Under the pieces are notes generated by a model. It had not been told where the DNA came from, made no database searches, and saw only the letters and a program-made list of their open reading frames with translations. A stretch of DNA of 64,000 bases from Tildeniella torsiva UHER 1998/13D (GTDB taxonomy: Bacteria; Cyanobacteriota; Cyanobacteriia; Phormidesmidales; Phormidesmidaceae). The DNA is taken from NCBI GenBank assembly GCA_019358835.1, contig JAHHIH010000028.1:1-64000 (forward strand). Direction: 5' to 3'. Made by a program: the position numbers and the translations under genes. Shown one piece after another: positions 41,181 to 52,906 of this stretch. The stretch's first letter is position 1; each line of letters starts with the position of its first letter.

Positions 41181-42740
41181 CTACGGCAGCGGCACGAAGT
41201 CAAAACCGGTGCCTGACCGACTGCCGGGTTTAACTTCGACCAGCAGCACAGTGGTGTTGCGATCGCCCGACGGCAAGAAGCTAATCGCCCCTGTGGATCC
41301 ATTAGCGGAGAATCCTTGCGCGGCCAAAGCTTGCCCCATCGCAGCTCGCCCTGAGGTACCGCTGCCGGGAGCCACGTTCCCGACCGTGCGGGCCGAACTC
41401 AACGCCTGAAACGCGTCGTAGCTGAGAGCCGTACGCCAGTTGACATCGCCGCCCCAGAGGCTAGAGGAGGTCTGGGCAAAGGGTGGGGTCGATTTGAGCG
41501 GGTGCCAGGGCACGGTCACTACGGTGCCCGTCAGGCTAGCGCCGCCTTTTTCCAGCGCATCAATGCGGTAGAAAGCGTCGCCAGCTAGCACCGGCAACTG
41601 GCCATTGTTGAGCTGGGCGACGGCGATCGCCGCATCAAAGGTGGCCGAGTCGGGCAGCAGCACTATGGCATCGGCTCCGCTGCCCTGGAGTTCTGTCGAT
41701 GGGTTGCCCTGGGAGAGATCGACCAGTTTGGCCACCTGGCCCCCTTCTAAGCCCAGGGTGGTGGAGAACGCGTCTTGCAGCGACTTGCTGTAGGAGCTTT
41801 GGGAGTTATAGAACACGATGGGCTTGGTCTTGCCCAACGTGAGCATGTGGCGGGCCAGGGTGGTGCCCGTAAACTGGTCGCTAGGAATCACCCGAAAAAC
41901 AAAATTACCGCCCTCCCTGGGCACCGTAGCCAACTCTGTGGTGGTGCTGGTGGGGGAGATCATCGGCAGCTGGCCCTGTTGGTAGACGGGGGCAGCGGCT
42001 AGGGTCGTGGTGCTGGTGCCGTGGCCGATGACACCAACGACGTTGGGGTCTTGGACGAGGGCATTGGCGATCGCAGCTGCCTGGCCCGCATCGTTGCGAT
42101 CGTTAGCAATCAGCACCTTCATGGGGGTGCCAGCCTTGATCGCCTCATCCTGGGCCTGGGCGACACCACGCAGCAGTTCGCGGGCGGTGTTGGGGTTATC
42201 GCCAATGGGCACGACAGCGGCAATGCCTAAAGCAGGGGTAGAACCGAGCTTGGCATTGTTGAAATAAATCAACGCCTCGGGGTCGTTGCGAACGGCCTTA
42301 CGGGCGGCGTCAAAGCGGGCGGCGGCGGTAGCATAGTCGCCCGAAGCGTAGGCGGCGGCCCCCGCCTGCATGTCAGCGTTGGATGCATCGGTGAAGAGGA
42401 TGCGATCGCCCCAACTCAGGGCGTTGGCCACATCGGCGGGCTGGCCTGGGGTGGTTGTCGGTGTCGTAGCAGTCGGATCCACTCCTGTATTGGTATTGGC
42501 ATCCACCGGAGGATTAGTGGCTTGAGGAACAGGCTGGGATGCATCCTTACGGAAAAAGGCGTTATAGCCCGTAAAGCCCAGCGCCCCTAAGAAGATGGCG
42601 GCCCCCACCCCGGCAATCACGGGAGCCAGGGACTTACTCTTTTTCAGAGGCTGGCCGCAGATTTCGCACTTCTGAGCGGTGGTGGTGTTTTCTTCGTAGC
42701 CGCATTTAGGGCAGGTGACGTGGTTGAAGCTGTCGGTCAT
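41181..42740 (-). CDS. Zinc-ribbon, membrane-anchored periplasmic-binding protein
   Basis: A 519-aa protein with an unusual order of parts. Residues 9-30 form a zinc ribbon (CPKCGY and CEICGQ). A membrane helix follows (about 37-60, APVIAGVGAAIFLGALGF), then a Pro/Thr-rich linker, a TPR-like pair (about 120-165) and a type I periplasmic-binding (Leu/Ile/Val-type) domain to the end, including GVIGHGTSTTTLAAAP and PMISPTSTTTELA. The ribbon should be cytoplasmic and the binding domain outside. No ABC permease lies nearby, so a sensor or recruitment role is more likely than transport. ATG at 42738-42740; longer frames run through repeats. It follows the tubulin-like gene. Confidence 0.82.
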   Translation of the reverse strand: MTDSFNHVTCPKCGYEENTTTAQKCEICGQPLKKSKSLAPVIAGVGAAIFLGALGFTGYNAFFRKDASQPVPQATNPPVDANTNTGVDPTATTPTTTPGQPADVANALSWGDRILFTDASNADMQAGAAAYASGDYATAAARFDAARKAVRNDPEALIYFNNAKLGSTPALGIAAVVPIGDNPNTARELLRGVAQAQDEAIKAGTPMKVLIANDRNDAGQAAAIANALVQDPNVVGVIGHGTSTTTLAAAPVYQQGQLPMISPTSTTTELATVPREGGNFVFRVIPSDQFTGTTLARHMLTLGKTKPIVFYNSQSSYSKSLQDAFSTTLGLEGGQVAKLVDLSQGNPSTELQGSGADAIVLLPDSATFDAAIAVAQLNNGQLPVLAGDAFYRIDALEKGGASLTGTVVTVPWHPLKSTPPFAQTSSSLWGGDVNWRTALSYDAFQALSSARTVGNVAPGSGTSGRAAMGQALAAQGFSANGSTGAISFLPSGDRNTTVLLVEVKPGSRSGTGFDFVPLP

Positions 42741-42787
42741 GGTAAATGGGTGGATGAGTAGGGGGTGGATGGGCGGTGGGGAGAGGG

Positions 42788-42947
42788 TTGAGTTTTGAGT
42801 TTTGAGTTTTGAATTGAAGAAGTCGGGTAGGTTGGGTGCAACGGCGTGGAACTCAACGCCCATGTTGTAAGTTAACTTTCGCTGGTGCCGCACCCAGCCT
42901 ACAACCAGCTACGCACTCAAAACTGAGCATTCAAAACTCAGAACTTT
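42788..42947. repeat. Composite repeat element between the tubulin-like and binding-protein genes
   Basis: The plus strand has three tandem copies of TTTTGAG (from 42790) and, 100 bp on, sequence of the reverse sense (ACTCAAAACT, 42915-42924). Between them is a 76-bp palindromic element, with arms GTAGGTTGGGTGC (42827-42839) and GCACCCAGCCTAC (42890-42902) that match at 12 of 13 positions. It looks like a small non-autonomous or REP-like element. Confidence 0.65.
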
Positions 42948-42951
42948 CTTC

Positions 42952-45900
42952 CTACGGTCGGTTCATTTCGGCGCGCACGTTGTCTTCAATGGTGGCAACC
43001 TGCTCGTTGGTGAGGCCCAGTTCTTCCTGGAGGTCAAGCAGTTGGGCCTGTTCCTCCATGTCAATTTCGCCGTCGTTGTCGAGGAAGGCCCGGTACATGA
43101 GGGCAAACTCGGCGGCGGCCTGTTCGAGGGTGTCTTGGGGTTGATATTGGGCGGCGATCGCATTCGCCTGCTCCACCGAAACCCCATACTTCAATCGGAA
43201 TTTCTCCAGGAGTTCCAGTTCGGTAGGCGAGGGCGTACCGCGTCGGTAGCAGCTTTCCACCAGCTTGGCGTATTTGGTCAGGTTTTCAGAGTCGAGGACG
43301 ACGGGGGTGGGGTTAGTGCTGGGGCGGACGGCGGGGGCCGCTGGGATAGGGGGTAGGGGGTGAGGAGTGGGGATGGTAGCGGTGGGTTGAGGATTTTCGC
43401 CAGGGATGAAGAGGCGGTGGGTGGTGACGAAGTTGGAGATCGCGGCCTGGATGCGTTTGTAATCCTCGCTGTCGGAGCCGCCGGGGAGAGTTTGCTCCTG
43501 CTGTTGCAGGTAGGTCATCACCTGGGTGTAGAGGGCTTGCTTTTGGGGTTTGGTGGCGGCCTGTTCGCCGATCGCCCGAATGGCATTGTCCAGGGTTTCC
43601 GACAGGCGGCGGTTTTGGTCGGTGAGGAGGAAGTCTTCGGCCTCTTCCCAGGTGGTACCCATGACCTCCGTTTTGTCGAAGCCGGTGAGTTTGTCGCGGT
43701 AGGTGAATTTGACCTCGGCAAAGCCCGTCACCCGGTTGTCTTCGCGGCGCACTAGGCCCAGGGCGTTGGCCAGCATCAGATTGTAGCGGGCCTGGCGCTC
43801 GTTGCTGGTTTCGGGCATGACATCGCCAAACTGCCGGTAGTCTTGGTGGGTGTGCAGGGGGTTGTGGTCGGCCTGGCTAACTGCGCGGTAGAGCGATCGC
43901 ATCCGCTCCATGCCCTCAATCATCCTCAATGGGAAAGCGCCAATTTCCTGCACAAAGTAAATGTGGTAGGGGTCGTTGAGAGGGCGAATTTCTTTGTCGG
44001 TGACGGTGCTGGTTTTGCGGATCATCGGCAGCAGGGCGGCAACGGCGGGGTCGGTGGGCTTGCTGCCGCCCTGGATGCCAACGAGTTTTTGGTACTTCTC
44101 CAGCTTGTCGTCCCAACCCAGCTTCTTTTGCTCCTGGCTGAGGCGCAGAAAGGCCTCCGATTTCTCGAAGGTGGTTTTGATCTGGGCCTCCTGCATTTCG
44201 ACCGTGGGGTACTGCTCCAGGAATTTGCGGGCGGTGGAGATGTCGAGCTGACTGCGGCGGCGAAACACATCCATGGCCTGACCCAGCAGTCGTTCGTAGA
44301 GATCCTTAGTTTTCAGCGCGTCGTAGGGGTAGAGGTCAAACAGGCGTACCCGCAGTTCTTCGAGCACCTGTTGGGAGAGGGTCTGGCAGAGGGTTTCTTC
44401 CTGGTCGGCGACGGTTTTGCGGTAGGCGGCGTCGATTTCTTTTTCGTCGTAGAGCAAAATGCCGTTGACCGTCAGGCCGCCGGTCTCCCGGGTGTAGACA
44501 CGCTCTTTGTCCTTCAGTTCGACCTGGACGTTGCCCAGCACGGTTTCAAAGGCAGTGAGATCGACCAAGAGCTGGTCGATTTCTTCGCGCAGGCCGTCGA
44601 GCAGCATTACCCCCAGGGTGCGGGCTTTGACCTCGACCTTAGAGACGTAGACCTGCTCCAGCGCCTGCATGATGCCTTGAAAGTCATCTTCGATAACTTT
44701 TTTCCGATTGAGCATCATCATCTGCTTGGCGTGGTCGTCGATCTGCTTGAGCAGGGTTTGCAGAGCGTTTTGGGCCGATCGCTCGCGCGGTAGCCAGTAT
44801 TTCTGCCGATCTTCGTCGAATTTGCTGCGAAAGTTGGCAAACACCTCGATTAGCACTTCCAAGAACTGGCGGGTAAACTTCGGCCCCCGGAAGCGATCTT
44901 CCACCATCAGGTAGACCGTGGCCCGCAGTTCCTTGCGCTTTTCGGGGATTAGCCAGCTGAGGTTGTCCCACATTTTTTGGAAGTAGTCGCTCCAGCGCTT
45001 AGGGTCGGTGCCGGTGTCGTTGAAGTGGGGGGCGTATTTCTCCTGCTCGTTGGAGATAAACCGTTGCAGGTTCTCGAAGGGGATATTCAGATCGTTGCGG
45101 CGCTTGCGCACCCCGGCCACCCAGTCGGCGACTTCCTTGGCGTAGGGCTTTTTGTTGTCGCCCATGCTGATGCTGTCGATCACCTGGTGGTCGTGCTCTG
45201 ATTCGGCGAGGAACAGGCCAGGGAGAATCTCGGTGCGAATCAGGTCGGACATCGCTGCCGGGGCGGGGGTGGGGTTGCTCCACCAGTCCACCAACTTGGC
45301 CGCCAGGCGAGCTGAGCAGGCGTTCAGCACCCGCTCTACGGGGAACTGAATGCTGGAGAGGCCAAAGCTCATGAAGTTTTGCGGGTAGCCCAAGGCGTCG
45401 GGGCTGGCCCAGTGCTTGCGGACGTTGTCGCGCACCAGCTTTTTGTACTGGCTAAAGCCGGAGCTAAAGTCGAGAAACACGTTCTGAGCCACCATCTCCA
45501 GCACGTCGCCCAGGGTGGGGAAGGTGACTTTGTCGTTGCTGTTGCCCACCAGGTAGGTGAAGTTGAAGGGCACATCGAGGCCACTCTGGCTGGTGATGCG
45601 ATCGCTCTGGCTGTCGCTGTACTGCACGTCAAAGCGGGTGTCGCCTCGGCTGTAGTGGTTCAGCTCCATCAGGGCAGCGTAGGCGTTGGCAATGACGCGA
45701 TCGCCCAATCCCGAAAAGGCCCCCGGCAACACCAGAAAGGCGCTGGTCTGGGGCAGTTCTGACACGGGTACCCAGTCGCGCAGGTTGTAGGCCAGATCCA
45801 TTACCATGCCGGAGCCAGTGCCGCCGGAGAGCGAACAGACCACAAAGATGTTGATGCCCTTGTCGAGCTGCACCTTCCAGCGATCGAGCATGAACTTCTC

Positions 45901-46335
45901 ATGGCCGACGATGCGCCCCTTGGCCTTGGTGAAGTAGTCCTTAATCAGCGGATAGTTGAGGCTGAAGGCAAACCGCCCTAGGGCCCGGATCTGGCCCGCC
46001 CCAGACAAGATCGAGTCGGTGCCCTTGAGCTCGCTGGGGAACCATTCGTCTAAATACTGGTAGGCCGACAGCTTGTTGAGAATAGCCTTGGCATCCTCAA
46101 CCTTGGCCCACACCTGCTCGATGGGGCGTAGGGAAATATCCTGCTTTAGCACCGTCTGGGCTTCGGAAACTTTGGCGTTTTGCTCAGTGTCGATGTGCAA
46201 AAACGAGACGATGGGCAGGGCGTCGAGGGAGCCATACTGCTCCACGATCATGCGGCGAATTTTGACCAAAATCTCTTTGCCAGTGCCCCCTACGCCAATG
46301 ATGACGGTGGGGGTCATGCCTGTATATTCGCTCAT
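42952..46335 (-). CDS. Tubulin-like domain protein with TerB-like C-terminus
   Basis: An 1127-aa cytoplasmic protein. Residues 11-23 read VIIGVGGTGKEIL, and near residue 170 lies SGGTGSGMVMDLAY, the glycine-rich tubulin/FtsZ nucleotide motif (GGTGSG). This is the Tubulin_2 type. A long helical middle (about 450-950) follows, then a Pro-rich linker (about 1000-1025) and about 100 helical residues with DNDGEIDMEE, resembling a TerB-type metal-binding helix pair. It may form nucleotide-controlled filaments or act as a GTPase switch; the family function is unknown. It is followed by the zinc-ribbon binding protein. ATG at 46333-46335. Confidence 0.85.
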   Translation of the reverse strand: MSEYTGMTPTVIIGVGGTGKEILVKIRRMIVEQYGSLDALPIVSFLHIDTEQNAKVSEAQTVLKQDISLRPIEQVWAKVEDAKAILNKLSAYQYLDEWFPSELKGTDSILSGAGQIRALGRFAFSLNYPLIKDYFTKAKGRIVGHEKFMLDRWKVQLDKGINIFVVCSLSGGTGSGMVMDLAYNLRDWVPVSELPQTSAFLVLPGAFSGLGDRVIANAYAALMELNHYSRGDTRFDVQYSDSQSDRITSQSGLDVPFNFTYLVGNSNDKVTFPTLGDVLEMVAQNVFLDFSSGFSQYKKLVRDNVRKHWASPDALGYPQNFMSFGLSSIQFPVERVLNACSARLAAKLVDWWSNPTPAPAAMSDLIRTEILPGLFLAESEHDHQVIDSISMGDNKKPYAKEVADWVAGVRKRRNDLNIPFENLQRFISNEQEKYAPHFNDTGTDPKRWSDYFQKMWDNLSWLIPEKRKELRATVYLMVEDRFRGPKFTRQFLEVLIEVFANFRSKFDEDRQKYWLPRERSAQNALQTLLKQIDDHAKQMMMLNRKKVIEDDFQGIMQALEQVYVSKVEVKARTLGVMLLDGLREEIDQLLVDLTAFETVLGNVQVELKDKERVYTRETGGLTVNGILLYDEKEIDAAYRKTVADQEETLCQTLSQQVLEELRVRLFDLYPYDALKTKDLYERLLGQAMDVFRRRSQLDISTARKFLEQYPTVEMQEAQIKTTFEKSEAFLRLSQEQKKLGWDDKLEKYQKLVGIQGGSKPTDPAVAALLPMIRKTSTVTDKEIRPLNDPYHIYFVQEIGAFPLRMIEGMERMRSLYRAVSQADHNPLHTHQDYRQFGDVMPETSNERQARYNLMLANALGLVRREDNRVTGFAEVKFTYRDKLTGFDKTEVMGTTWEEAEDFLLTDQNRRLSETLDNAIRAIGEQAATKPQKQALYTQVMTYLQQQEQTLPGGSDSEDYKRIQAAISNFVTTHRLFIPGENPQPTATIPTPHPLPPIPAAPAVRPSTNPTPVVLDSENLTKYAKLVESCYRRGTPSPTELELLEKFRLKYGVSVEQANAIAAQYQPQDTLEQAAAEFALMYRAFLDNDGEIDMEEQAQLLDLQEELGLTNEQVATIEDNVRAEMNRP

Positions 46336-49570: not shown

Positions 49571-52500
49571 ATGTCTAATCCGCCCCCCACTGTTCTGCAA
49601 CTGGCCCGTCAGGGCGACCCAGAGGCGATCGCGGCTCTGATGAATCGCCACCTAGAGGCCCAGGGTATTACTGCCCACGTGGTGCAAAACGACAGCACCC
49701 TTCAGGTGAACCTAGAGTCCGCCCAAATTCCCCACCAGGCCGATCTGGTGGCCTACGTGAAAAAAGGCATCACCGGGCTGGAGCTAGCCGCCATCCAACA
49801 CCTGACCGTCAGCGGCAAACAGCTGGGGGCCGACACCAGCGCCTGGAGCGAAGACCTGGTGCTGCAAGACTCCTCCATTGCCGATTTGGACTTTGACCTA
49901 GGCCTAGATGCCGCCCCCGCCAGCGATGATCCCGACCTCGGGTTTGACCTCGACAGCACCAGTGGAACCGACCTCGATCAGCTAGGCGACCTTGACGCGG
50001 CCCTAGGCAATGACTTCGGCGGTGCCGACCTCGATTTAGGGTTTACCGACAGCCCCAGCGATCTCGATCTCGATGCCCCAGCCGACTTTGACCTCAGCTT
50101 TACCGACGATAGCGCCAGCGACTTTGACCTCGATCTCACCGACACCAGCCTCACCGATACCAACCTCACCAACAGCGTTACCGACCTGGGGGCCGCCGAT
50201 GATTTTGGTCTAGAGTTCACCGACACCTCTGCCGACGCCAGCGATCTCGACTTCGATCTAGGCCTTGGCGAAGATCCGAGCGATTCTGAGGTTACCGATC
50301 TAGATTTTGATCTGGGACTCTCCGAGCCTGGCGCTGCTGAATCCGCTGCCGACTTCGATCTCGACCTGGCCCTGGCCGATACCCCCGCCGCTGACCTAAG
50401 CTTCACCGAAGCCTCAGAGAGCGCAACCTCCGACGCGGCGGAGCTCGATTTTGACTTAGGCCTAGACGATGCTCCTGCAGGTGCCGCAGATGACCTGGGC
50501 TTTGATCTAGATCTCACTGATGAACCCGCTGAGGGTGCCCCAGCGAGCGATTTTGACCTCGATTTAAGCATGGGCGACCTCGATATGGATGACGAATTCG
50601 CTGGGGCCTCAGAGGATGATCTAAATTTAGGCTTTGAACCATCTCCGATCGCAGCGGCTGACACCGATCTAGATTTTGATTTCGATGGGGGAGAACCCAG
50701 CGCCCCCAGTGGATTCGACGCTGATGCGTTAGATCTGGATCTGGGCCTAGAGGATGCACCCACCGGGGCCAGCGATGGGCTCGACTTTGACCTAGGAACC
50801 GACGACAATGCCCTCGACCTAGATTTTGCCGCTGCCGATGAAGCTGCTCTTCTAGATTTAGAGGCCGATCAATGGCCTGCCGCCAGCGACCCCGAAGCCG
50901 TTGCCGACTTTGACTTCGACTTTGAGACCGACCCAGAGCTGACTGAGAGTGTGGGCGATGGGGAGGCGATCGCCGCCGCCGACCTCGACTTTGACATCAA
51001 CACCCCTGCAGCTCACCCCACAGCCCCTGACGTGGATAGCGATCTAGACGACCTTTGGAGCAGCGGCGACGCCAGCCTCGATCTAGAGAGCATCCCCACT
51101 CCAGGCCCAGCAGACGGTACCATCGACCCCTGGGCCACCGATTTGTCTGGGATGGATGACTTGGTCGGTTTTGACGAGGGCTTGAGCGACGAAGTCGGTC
51201 CTCCCGAGGAACTGACCAACCTGGAGGACATTCCCAACGATCTCGATCTGCCTGGGGTAGAACCCGATCTCCTAGGGGTCACTGAGTTCGATGCCGAGCT
51301 AGGCCTGGGGTTTGATGACGAAGGATTCGATCCGGAAGCCCCTATGGCTGAGGAAATCACACCCGACGCCGAGGCCTTCCCTGACCTCGATCTGGGCGCT
51401 GGCTACGCTACACCAGACCTAGAACCGGGTTTAGAAAATTTGGCCCCCGAGCTTTTAGCTGCAGAAGATTTAGCTTTTGAGGATTTAGGTGCCGCTGCTG
51501 ATCTCGATCTCACCGAAGCTGCCACCTTGGGCAGCGACGACTGGGCCTCAGTCGAGCCGGGTCTCACCGTCGATGCTGACCCTGACCTGGGAACTTACGA
51601 CGATCTAGGGGCCTACGACGATCTGGGAGCCGCTGATTTTGCCGCCGCTGATCTTAACCTAGCCGAGGACGAGCTCAGTGCTGAGGCAACAGACACCCCC
51701 GTCTTCAACGATTTTGATTTAGAAGCCGCTTCAGAAGATCTGCTCCTGGATCCCTTGGGCGCAGAGGCCTTTCCTGGGGAGAGCGCCTCGGGGAACCCCG
51801 AGGCTGAGGCTCCACCCTGGGCAGCGGAGGACAGCAGCTTTGACCCCAACCTCGTCCTAGACTCCCCTGCCGACTTCGAGGTTGAACCCGAGATTGCATT
51901 TGATCCTGGCCTGAGCTTCGAGTCTCAGACTGAGACCCCCTACACCACTCCCAATCCCTTTGATTCCGAGGCCTACGGGACAGGCTTTGATGCCGATACC
52001 GACATGCCCTTCTCAACCATGGAGTTAGACCAGACCGTTGAGGGCGACTTTATCCCCGATCTCGCCATGGCTGGCGAACCTGGCGACGTTGACGATACGT
52101 TTCTAGAGCAGCCTGAGGATTATTCTGCTGGGGCTGTACCGGCTTCTGTCCTCGGACTCAGCGATGACATGATGGATGATCCGGCCTTTGAGTCCGTTGA
52201 GTTTGGCAGCGACGAGCTAGATTCGCCCGGCTTTGAGTCCGCAGGACTCAGCGACGAAGGTTTCGAGATCCAGGATTTCGGTGATGAAGGGTTTGAAGAT
52301 GAAGGGTTTGATGCCGGGGGCTTTAGCGACAGTTCCCCAGACAGCAACGGCTTCATCCAAGACCGCAACGGGGTGGCCTTAGTAGATGATGAACCCGACG
52401 CCACTGACGACTTCATTCAAGAGTTTGGCTCAGACCCATCCACCCACGTCTCTCTCTCTCCTGAACAGTTTAACGACGACGGCAGCGTCCGCCGGGCAGG

Positions 52501-52906
52501 CGGAGGGTCTGGCTTGCCCATGCGCTTGATTTTAGGCTTGGGCCTGGGGGCTCTGGCTCTAGCTCTGGTTGGTCTGCTGCTCAACGGGCTGCTCGGTCGC
52601 CTGCGACAGCCTACTCCAGGGGGAGAGCCTGCAATCACCGAATCGGCTGTACCACCTCCGGTTGACCCAGCGGCTGTACCCGCAGAGGATCTGTTTAGGC
52701 AAGCAGTTAATGCGGCTCAAACCGCCGCTAACCAAGCCCAAACCGCTACTACCCCGGCCCAGTGGCAAGAGGTAGCCAACGCGTGGGCGCAGGCGATCGA
52801 TCTGATGCAGCGAGTGCCCGCCTCTGACCCCAACTACGCCACTGCCCAGCAGAAGGCGGTTGACTATCAGCCCAACCTCGACTATGCCCGGCAAAACGCC
52901 CAGTAG
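49571..52906 (+). CDS. Acidic Asp/Leu/Phe-repeat membrane protein, 1111 aa
   Basis: Residues 1-98 form a folded N-terminal domain (LQLARQGDPEAIAALMNRHL and the VSGKQLG end), which I have seen in front of other cyanobacterial proteins. Residues about 100-960 are highly acidic and made of irregular repeats such as DLDFDLGLDDAP and DFDLDL. One membrane helix lies at about 977-1000 (LILGLGLGALALALVGLLLN), followed by a Pro-rich linker and a helical C-terminal unit (about 1030-1111). No Cys or enzymatic motif stands out. The layout is reminiscent of FimV, a pole-organising protein of type IV pilus systems, but with no detectable LysM domain. Function unknown. Confidence 0.85.
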   Translation: MSNPPPTVLQLARQGDPEAIAALMNRHLEAQGITAHVVQNDSTLQVNLESAQIPHQADLVAYVKKGITGLELAAIQHLTVSGKQLGADTSAWSEDLVLQDSSIADLDFDLGLDAAPASDDPDLGFDLDSTSGTDLDQLGDLDAALGNDFGGADLDLGFTDSPSDLDLDAPADFDLSFTDDSASDFDLDLTDTSLTDTNLTNSVTDLGAADDFGLEFTDTSADASDLDFDLGLGEDPSDSEVTDLDFDLGLSEPGAAESAADFDLDLALADTPAADLSFTEASESATSDAAELDFDLGLDDAPAGAADDLGFDLDLTDEPAEGAPASDFDLDLSMGDLDMDDEFAGASEDDLNLGFEPSPIAAADTDLDFDFDGGEPSAPSGFDADALDLDLGLEDAPTGASDGLDFDLGTDDNALDLDFAAADEAALLDLEADQWPAASDPEAVADFDFDFETDPELTESVGDGEAIAAADLDFDINTPAAHPTAPDVDSDLDDLWSSGDASLDLESIPTPGPADGTIDPWATDLSGMDDLVGFDEGLSDEVGPPEELTNLEDIPNDLDLPGVEPDLLGVTEFDAELGLGFDDEGFDPEAPMAEEITPDAEAFPDLDLGAGYATPDLEPGLENLAPELLAAEDLAFEDLGAAADLDLTEAATLGSDDWASVEPGLTVDADPDLGTYDDLGAYDDLGAADFAAADLNLAEDELSAEATDTPVFNDFDLEAASEDLLLDPLGAEAFPGESASGNPEAEAPPWAAEDSSFDPNLVLDSPADFEVEPEIAFDPGLSFESQTETPYTTPNPFDSEAYGTGFDADTDMPFSTMELDQTVEGDFIPDLAMAGEPGDVDDTFLEQPEDYSAGAVPASVLGLSDDMMDDPAFESVEFGSDELDSPGFESAGLSDEGFEIQDFGDEGFEDEGFDAGGFSDSSPDSNGFIQDRNGVALVDDEPDATDDFIQEFGSDPSTHVSLSPEQFNDDGSVRRAGGGSGLPMRLILGLGLGALALALVGLLLNGLLGRLRQPTPGGEPAITESAVPPPVDPAAVPAEDLFRQAVNAAQTAANQAQTATTPAQWQEVANAWAQAIDLMQRVPASDPNYATAQQKAVDYQPNLDYARQNAQ

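Follow-up and report, generated by a model that had tools for sequence, protein, structure and literature searches.

A stretch of 64,000 nucleotides from the cyanobacterium Tildeniella torsiva UHER 1998/13D (contig JAHHIH010000028.1, positions 1 to 64,000; the whole stretch is called the window below) carries a gene for a giant tubulin-like protein, followed by a gene for a partner protein with a zinc ribbon, a membrane helix and an external solute-binding domain. Open reading frames (ORFs) were called by simple scripts and listed for positions 30000-58000 of the window. An earlier note, made from the sequence letters, had described a tubulin-type giant and a partner encoded on the same strand; both ORFs were found in the list, on the minus strand. 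The 519 amino acids (aa) of the partner are counted from an ATG, and the longer ORF in the list begins at an upstream GTG. The two genes and their parts are listed here with the Pfam expectation value (E) or other evidence for each.

42952..46335, minus strand: giant Tubulin_2/FtsZl1-family protein, 1127 aa (ORF; Pfam Tubulin_2, E 1e-93; 16-sequence alignment A1)
45286..46305, minus strand: Tubulin_2 nucleotide-binding domain, residues 11-350 (Pfam; strand and helix order in an AlphaFold2 (AF2) model of low overall confidence)
45808..45825, minus strand: GGTGSG loop, residues 171-176 (sequence; invariant in 16 aligned sequences)
44479..44886, minus strand: predicted long helical hairpin or coiled coil, residues 484-619 (AF2 secondary structure; mean predicted local distance difference test score (pLDDT) of the model 56.7)
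42967..43293, minus strand: C-terminal tail of six helices, residues 1015-1123, whose identity with TerB is unconfirmed (pLDDT 87 for a model of the last 110 aa)
42741..42951, no strand: intergenic gap, 211 bp (ORF positions)
41181..42740, minus strand: partner, 519 aa, with zinc ribbon, membrane helix and external solute-binding domain (ORF, Pfam, hydropathy)
42657..42713, minus strand: zinc ribbon CPKC...KCEIC, residues 10-28, predicted to be cytoplasmic (its Cys are the same in all 9 aligned stalks)
42573..42629, minus strand: membrane helix, residues ~38-56, with KKSKS on its N-terminal side (hydropathy; alignment)
41229..42188, minus strand: Peripla_BP_6 external ligand-binding domain (Pfam, E 5e-23)

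The giant is, by its profile match, a member of the FtsZl1/Tubulin_2 family. PF13809 (Tubulin_2) covers residues 11-350 with 314.9 bits against a cut-off of 27, and this match and the GGTGSG loop, which fits the family pattern GG(T)G(S/T)G, bear out the tubulin/FtsZ nucleotide motifs that the earlier note had seen in the 1127-aa protein. A central coiled coil and a helical C-terminus, as in FtsZl1, were seen in the AF2 models (overall confidence low, tail model good). The assignment to the tubulins rests on Pfam, because the full-length model is poor and the matches to the PDB are insignificant; the top ranks were long-helical chains, and CetZ2 (4b45) appeared at E 0.15. A sequence-profile search for solved relatives returned none at E ≤0.1, and NCBIfam assigned no family. 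The "TerB-like end" of the earlier note was not confirmed: a Pfam scan gave no TerB family at E up to 1, and the label is unconfirmed because the six-helix model has no significant match in the PDB (best E 0.69).

The partner has the predicted architecture, and the combination of zinc ribbon, membrane helix and external solute-binding domain with no adjacent ABC permease was confirmed by alignment, hydropathy and Pfam. The helix was called by hydropathy only, and the ribbon is predicted to be cytoplasmic because of its position and the KK residues beside the helix. In the single partner sequence the ribbon falls below the Pfam cut-offs; its four Cys do not vary across nine aligned stalks (zinc ribbon plus helix), which bear three kinds of outer domain, and neither do C-x-KC and KCEICG. 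The closest PDB relatives of the Peripla_BP_6 domain are branched-chain amino acid binding proteins (nearest 3td9, E 8e-20). The partner thus resembles LivJ-type ABC binding proteins in the fold of its external domain, but has the zinc ribbon and membrane helix in front and no adjacent transporter genes. The genes nearest the pair encode lipase_3 and UPF0182 proteins (Pfam), so that no ABC permease or ATPase adjoins the partner; distant permeases were not searched.

The stalk and the tubulin clade to which the giant belongs (clade A) have the same distribution. A set of 386 cyanobacterial genomes that samples the phylum evenly contains four with a clade-A tubulin (identity of 66% or more), namely G000, G064, G085, and G241, and the other tubulin matches longer than 60 residues reach at most 39% identity. 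The A-stalk profile A4 found the same four genomes at E ≤1e-14, with the next best match at 3e-8 covering the ribbon only (Fisher p 1e-9, relatedness not corrected). G085 and G241 are independent finds, because G000 and G064 supplied rows to A4. Among 63 genomes of the order, for which nearly all candidates were scored, a clade-A tubulin occurs in 17, incomplete or split copies included (G410, G411, G413, G416, and G419). The A stalk was detected in the same 17 genomes (E ≤2.2e-25); the remaining 46 gave no match at E ≤1e-6. Two rows of A4 come from the genus of the window, namely the window itself and L018, which is from Nodosilinea nodulosa PCC 7104, a strain with both genes; nine genomes of this genus are without both tubulin and stalk, five of them being at least 96% complete. 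Within the order, the two genes lie on the same contig within 10 kb in 11 of the 17 genomes (G410 by a tail fragment), on the same contig yet 333 kb (G407) and 2.1 Mb (G423) apart, and on different contigs in four.

The tubulin search of the genome collection gave 21 loci. Identity to the giant was 89-97% in Nodosilinea, Shackletoniella, Phormidium, and Leptolyngbya (79% on one short contig, L021) and 59-67% in Nostoc, Gloeomargarita, Pantanalinema, Phormidesmis, Xenococcus, and other relatives. Together with the window and 40 loci from further searches, 62 neighbourhoods were compared. Downstream of the clade-A tubulin gene lies one whose product shares this zinc ribbon and helix and varies in its outer domain. 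According to the profile search, the stalk adjoins the tubulin in 15 of the 22 clade-A loci that have at least 1 kb of downstream sequence (L004, L017, and L021 end at the tubulin and are outside this set); a stalk motif search was too narrow for the Gloeomargarita stalks, and the profile search used instead gave the same 15 loci. The gap between tubulin and partner is 4, 10, and 33 bp in L009, L010, and L016, respectively, versus 211 bp in the window. The earlier note had made its proposal depend on the two genes being kept together and having the same phylogenetic spread: in the genomes searched, the spread of stalk and tubulin is identical, and they are neighbours in these 15 of the 22 testable loci. 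No stalk adjoins the tubulin in L006 (insertion), in L020, or in the Gloeomargarita-type loci L011, L012, L019, L082, and L084. Insertions seem to be tolerated at the tubulin locus: in L006, a transposase-looking ORF replaces and overlaps the tubulin tail, in L020, methylase-looking genes lie downstream of the tubulin (both labels by eye), and in L002, the tubulin and its partner are kept apart by approximately 3.2 kb of inserted genes.

The association recurs in a sister clade of tubulins (clade B; 31-38% identity). The N-terminus of the clade-B partner bears a different zinc motif, W-x-C-x-G ... C-x(2-4)-C, after which come a helix and an outer domain. The B stalk (E ≤7e-18) is present in 23 of the 386 genomes, exactly those 23 with a clade-B tubulin; nine of them supplied rows to the B profile, and 14 are independent finds (Fisher p 4e-36 with G056, described below, included, relatedness not corrected). 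In the order, tubulins at 35-38% identity occur in G399 and G419, and the prediction made before the result was seen, that the B stalk would be found only in these two, agreed with the search, which found exactly those two of 63. Both B genes are in one neighbourhood in 11 of the 23 genomes (G105, G131, G143, G172, G187, G195, G207, G229, G233, G298, and G376), in G187 and G233 on opposite strands. A tree of 77 tips was built with tubulins from 62 of the 68 genomes with matches; G016 and G385 (no usable ORF), G125, G167, and, as tail-only matches, G127 and G215 were left off. Clade A (11 tips) and clade B (26 tips) both form monophyletic groups and are sisters with support 1.0, and no other match falls inside. 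The tubulin tails differ between clades: six helices in A, a zinc ribbon in one (L086) and GYF_2 in the other (L089) of the two B tails scanned, and a sub-threshold SHOCT match in the one tail scanned (L103) of a further clade, C. Judged from sequence, the fold assignments hold and each stalk type is inherited together with its tubulin clade even where the two genes are unlinked.

A reading in which the two genes merely travel together on one island, kept by linkage with no functional coupling, could draw on their being neighbours in 11 of 17 genomes of the order and in 11 of 23 clade-B genomes. Both genes are, however, kept where they lie far apart on one contig, in G407 and G423, in the Gloeomargarita genomes G085 and G241, and in the clade-B genomes G089, G095, G179, G247, and G312; moreover, the outer domain changes and the stalk does not. 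This reading is disfavoured, and we consider it highly improbable. A dedicated partnership of stalk and tubulin is very probable.

The outer part of the partner is variable. As far as sequence comparison reaches, the stalk is constant and the outer domain has been exchanged between lineages. The A stalk carries Peripla_BP_6 in the window and its relatives and also in L022 (where stalk gene and tubulin both look broken), PBP_like_2 (PstS-like) in L010 and L013 by Pfam and in L015 and L083 by clustering, and an NMT1-like domain with OmpA in L009 by Pfam and in L016 by clustering. Each of the two Gloeomargarita genomes checked (G085 and G241) encodes two stalk proteins away from the tubulin locus, one PstS-like and one with WD40; the outer domains of the G085 pair were assigned by Pfam. 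The Gloeomargarita ORFs L190:6644-7798 and L193:6047-7180 encode a zinc-stalk-plus-helix protein with a predicted external WD40 propeller (Pfam for L190). Outer domains of the B stalk include Peripla_BP_6 (L086), PBP_like_2 (L097), and a phosphonate-binding domain with SNase (L180), and G187 (L182) has two stalk proteins, of which the scanned one gave no Pfam match. The pairing proposed in the earlier note stands, but the constant part of the partner is the zinc stalk, and the solute-binding domain is interchangeable.

The partner sequence matches proteins in 142 of the 386 genomes, so the Peripla_BP_6 outer module is generic; this raw count of solute-binding matches was dropped as a measure of co-occurrence, and the stalk alone was used. 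Eight long proteins with the module, selected rather than sampled at random, were inspected. Protein kinase domains accompany it in two (L129 and L053; one of the kinase proteins has a Trans_reg_C-like N-terminus), a caspase (C14) domain in two (L122 and L127, the latter also with STAND), and an AAA/STAND-type NTPase in three (two proteins in L124, one in L125); L128 contains two Peripla_BP_6 copies and no effector domain match in the ORF as cut. That kinase, caspase, and STAND-type proteins carry the module looks like receptor-type use of one sensor and fits a receptor role of the partner.

The outer domains also bear on the possibility that the stalk protein is a passive membrane anchor, with the complex remodelling or holding the membrane and the outer domains tethering it to wall or matrix. 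The OmpA domain fused in L009 (Pfam) and in its homologue L016 (same cluster) would suit such an anchor, as would the WD40 and domain-less outer parts and the membrane remodelling proposed for FtsZl1 in 2010 (in the sections of PMC2875224 considered here). Most outer domains examined are nevertheless solute-binding folds of several kinds, and the Peripla_BP_6 module is shared with the kinase, caspase, and STAND-type proteins described above. We regard the anchor as rather unlikely and favour a receptor.

A vWA-membrane protein (c13; weak match to Pfam VWA_2, E 0.0033) adjoins many clade-B tubulins. In 51 genomes searched with the c13 vWA, it was found at full length in 13 of the 23 clade-B genomes, in a reduced form in two, and not at all in eight. 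The stalk is a more constant partner than the c13 vWA, since the latter is full length in just these 13. Among the clade-A genomes, the c13 vWA profile gave no match in G000 and G085 and partial matches in G064 and G241 (7.6e-4 and 8.7e-4); other vWA types were not searched. A vWA protein of the c13 type as universal partner was rejected for clade A, with only two partial matches in four genomes.

Clade-C loci (L102-L116, L121, and L194) have a conserved operon in the order vWA-like gene, tubulin, ZorA-like gene, and ZorB-like gene, which places a tubulin-family giant beside a proton-channel pair of the MotAB/ZorAB type. Of 17 loci that have any of its genes, 16 hold the complete operon, as does L194. 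Its vWA-like gene is weak (VWA_2 E 0.027 in L114, no match in L110), and PADLOC recognised one ZorA-like (E 6e-14) and one ZorB-like protein (E 6e-8). In L117 and L118, another type of tubulin (910 and 926 aa) is flanked on one side by a vWA protein and on the other by a protein of 1018 or 922 aa; the large neighbour protein in L118, the one scanned, weakly matches Tubulin_2 (E 0.017). The ZorA- and ZorB-like genes are a likeness of clade C to Zorya. PADLOC gave no Zor match for either window protein, and Zorya membership of the window pair was rejected on this ground and because of the lipase and UPF0182 flanks.

Predicted conflict systems of firmicutes and actinobacteria combine tubulin, vWA, and GTPase genes (Kaur et al., 2020; PMC7159879, in the sections considered here). 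They resemble the present pair in their tubulin-family protein with a coiled coil, membrane proteins, and zinc ribbons, and another system in that paper has a transmembrane segment with a periplasmic-binding domain in a variable slot. As described in these sections, their tubulin systems centre on DO-GTPase and GAP1, whereas Pfam scans of five window proteins detected no GTPase besides the tubulin; DO-GTPase and GAP1 were not recognised, no dedicated model having been run. A defence device of this kind, in which the sensor-tubulin complex forms an abortive assembly upon infection, would be in line with the patchy spread of the tubulin, the sensor held in common with caspase and STAND-type proteins, the tubulin of the predicted conflict systems, and the Zor-like genes of clade C. 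PADLOC, however, returned a single marginal match for the giant (E 0.0084, in the tail) and none for the partner, the flanking lipase and UPF0182 genes likewise speak against it, and so does the lack of another GTPase among the five proteins. A defence function is improbable in our estimation.

Further along the window, positions 49571-52906 encode a protein of 1111 aa that consists mostly of acidic Asp/Leu-rich repeats, with a hydrophobic stretch close to the C-terminus (judged by eye). A Pfam scan of this protein gave no family above cut-off. A homologue is kept beside UPF0182 in relatives.

The earlier note knew of no described pathway with this pair, which was too strong. In the sections of PMC2875224 considered here, Makarova and Koonin (2010) defined the FtsZl1 family, gave vWA (usual though not obligatory), kinase, GTPase, and OmpA as its common partners, and suggested that it remodels membranes; the reviewer Jekely named a branched-chain amino acid periplasmic component in Arthrospira and a TRAP component in Polaromonas beside FtsZl1 and suggested transport or signalling, and the authors dismissed such neighbours as lineage-specific. 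Tubulin_2 has been linked to this family (PMC9871819), and vWA context was added by PMC12204202 and PMC5898192, each in the sections considered here. The FtsZ-like N-domain, coiled coil, helical C-terminus, and membrane-associated neighbours are common to FtsZl1 and the present giant. The zinc-stalk receptor, the co-inheritance, and the exchange of outer domains are not described in the sections considered, and clade A differs in lacking the vWA type that accompanies clade B (c13). Among open-licence papers, none was found on the zinc-stalk partner, on this pair beyond the 2010 paper, or reporting a function of FtsZl1.

The pair may thus represent a two-component membrane system, in which the partner would be a single-pass receptor whose N-terminus lies in the cytoplasm. 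A ligand might be sensed by the external domain, which here has a periplasmic-binding fold of type I and of the amino-acid-binding kind, and the cytoplasmic zinc ribbon with the helix would form a stalk dedicated to docking on the giant Tubulin_2 protein, probably at the clade-specific C-terminal region of the latter. Ligand binding or clustering could then change the GTP-dependent assembly of the tubulin-like protein under the membrane, and the assembled protein might act as scaffold or output. Topology, direct binding, ligand control, GTP use, polymerisation, and output are the parts that we infer. A dedicated transmembrane receptor reporting to a tubulin-like GTPase is, as a whole, somewhat probable; for ligand-controlled assembly of the tubulin-like protein, the case for and the case against are about balanced. 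The link from an external ligand to a nucleotide-dependent tubulin-like protein drawn in the earlier note is the best reading and is not proven.

Several points weigh against such a receptor. AF2 modelled the full-length giant poorly (pLDDT 56.7), and a PDB fold search with that model gave nothing significant (none below E 0.001, best E 0.026). It is not obvious that outer parts with WD40, or with no domain, would sense a ligand. A neighbouring stalk is missing in seven of the 22 testable clade-A loci, and stalk and tubulin are not neighbours in six of the 17 genomes of the order; in clade B, they are apart in 12 of 23 genomes, five with the genes far apart on one contig and seven with different contigs. 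In G056, a weaker match to the B-type stalk (2e-10) goes with a clade-C tubulin only, and a clade-B one is lacking. The survey of 386 genomes scored at most two tubulin, 15 A-stalk, and 13 B-stalk candidates per genome, and four of the nine genomes of the same genus without both genes are less than 90% complete. In addition, the co-occurrence counts are not phylogenetically independent, as the genomes of species are related by descent.

Taken further, such proteins could be "cytoskeletal receptors": single-pass proteins with interchangeable outer sensors, whose short zinc stalk is the sole fixed part and fits, in a clade-specific way, a giant GTPase of the tubulin family; ligands outside the cell would thereby control a tubulin-like assembly directly without a kinase or second messenger. 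This generalisation is tentative, and we put it slightly below an even balance. For FtsZl1, a co-inherited transmembrane partner with an exchanged outer sensor offers a testable role, the reception of external signals by a tubulin-like protein, with stalk versus tubulin as the minimal interaction to be tested. The findings support the suggestion made by the reviewer in 2010, as far as it is recorded in the sections of PMC2875224 considered here, and the gene pair suggests a route by which signals from outside may reach a cytoskeleton-like protein.

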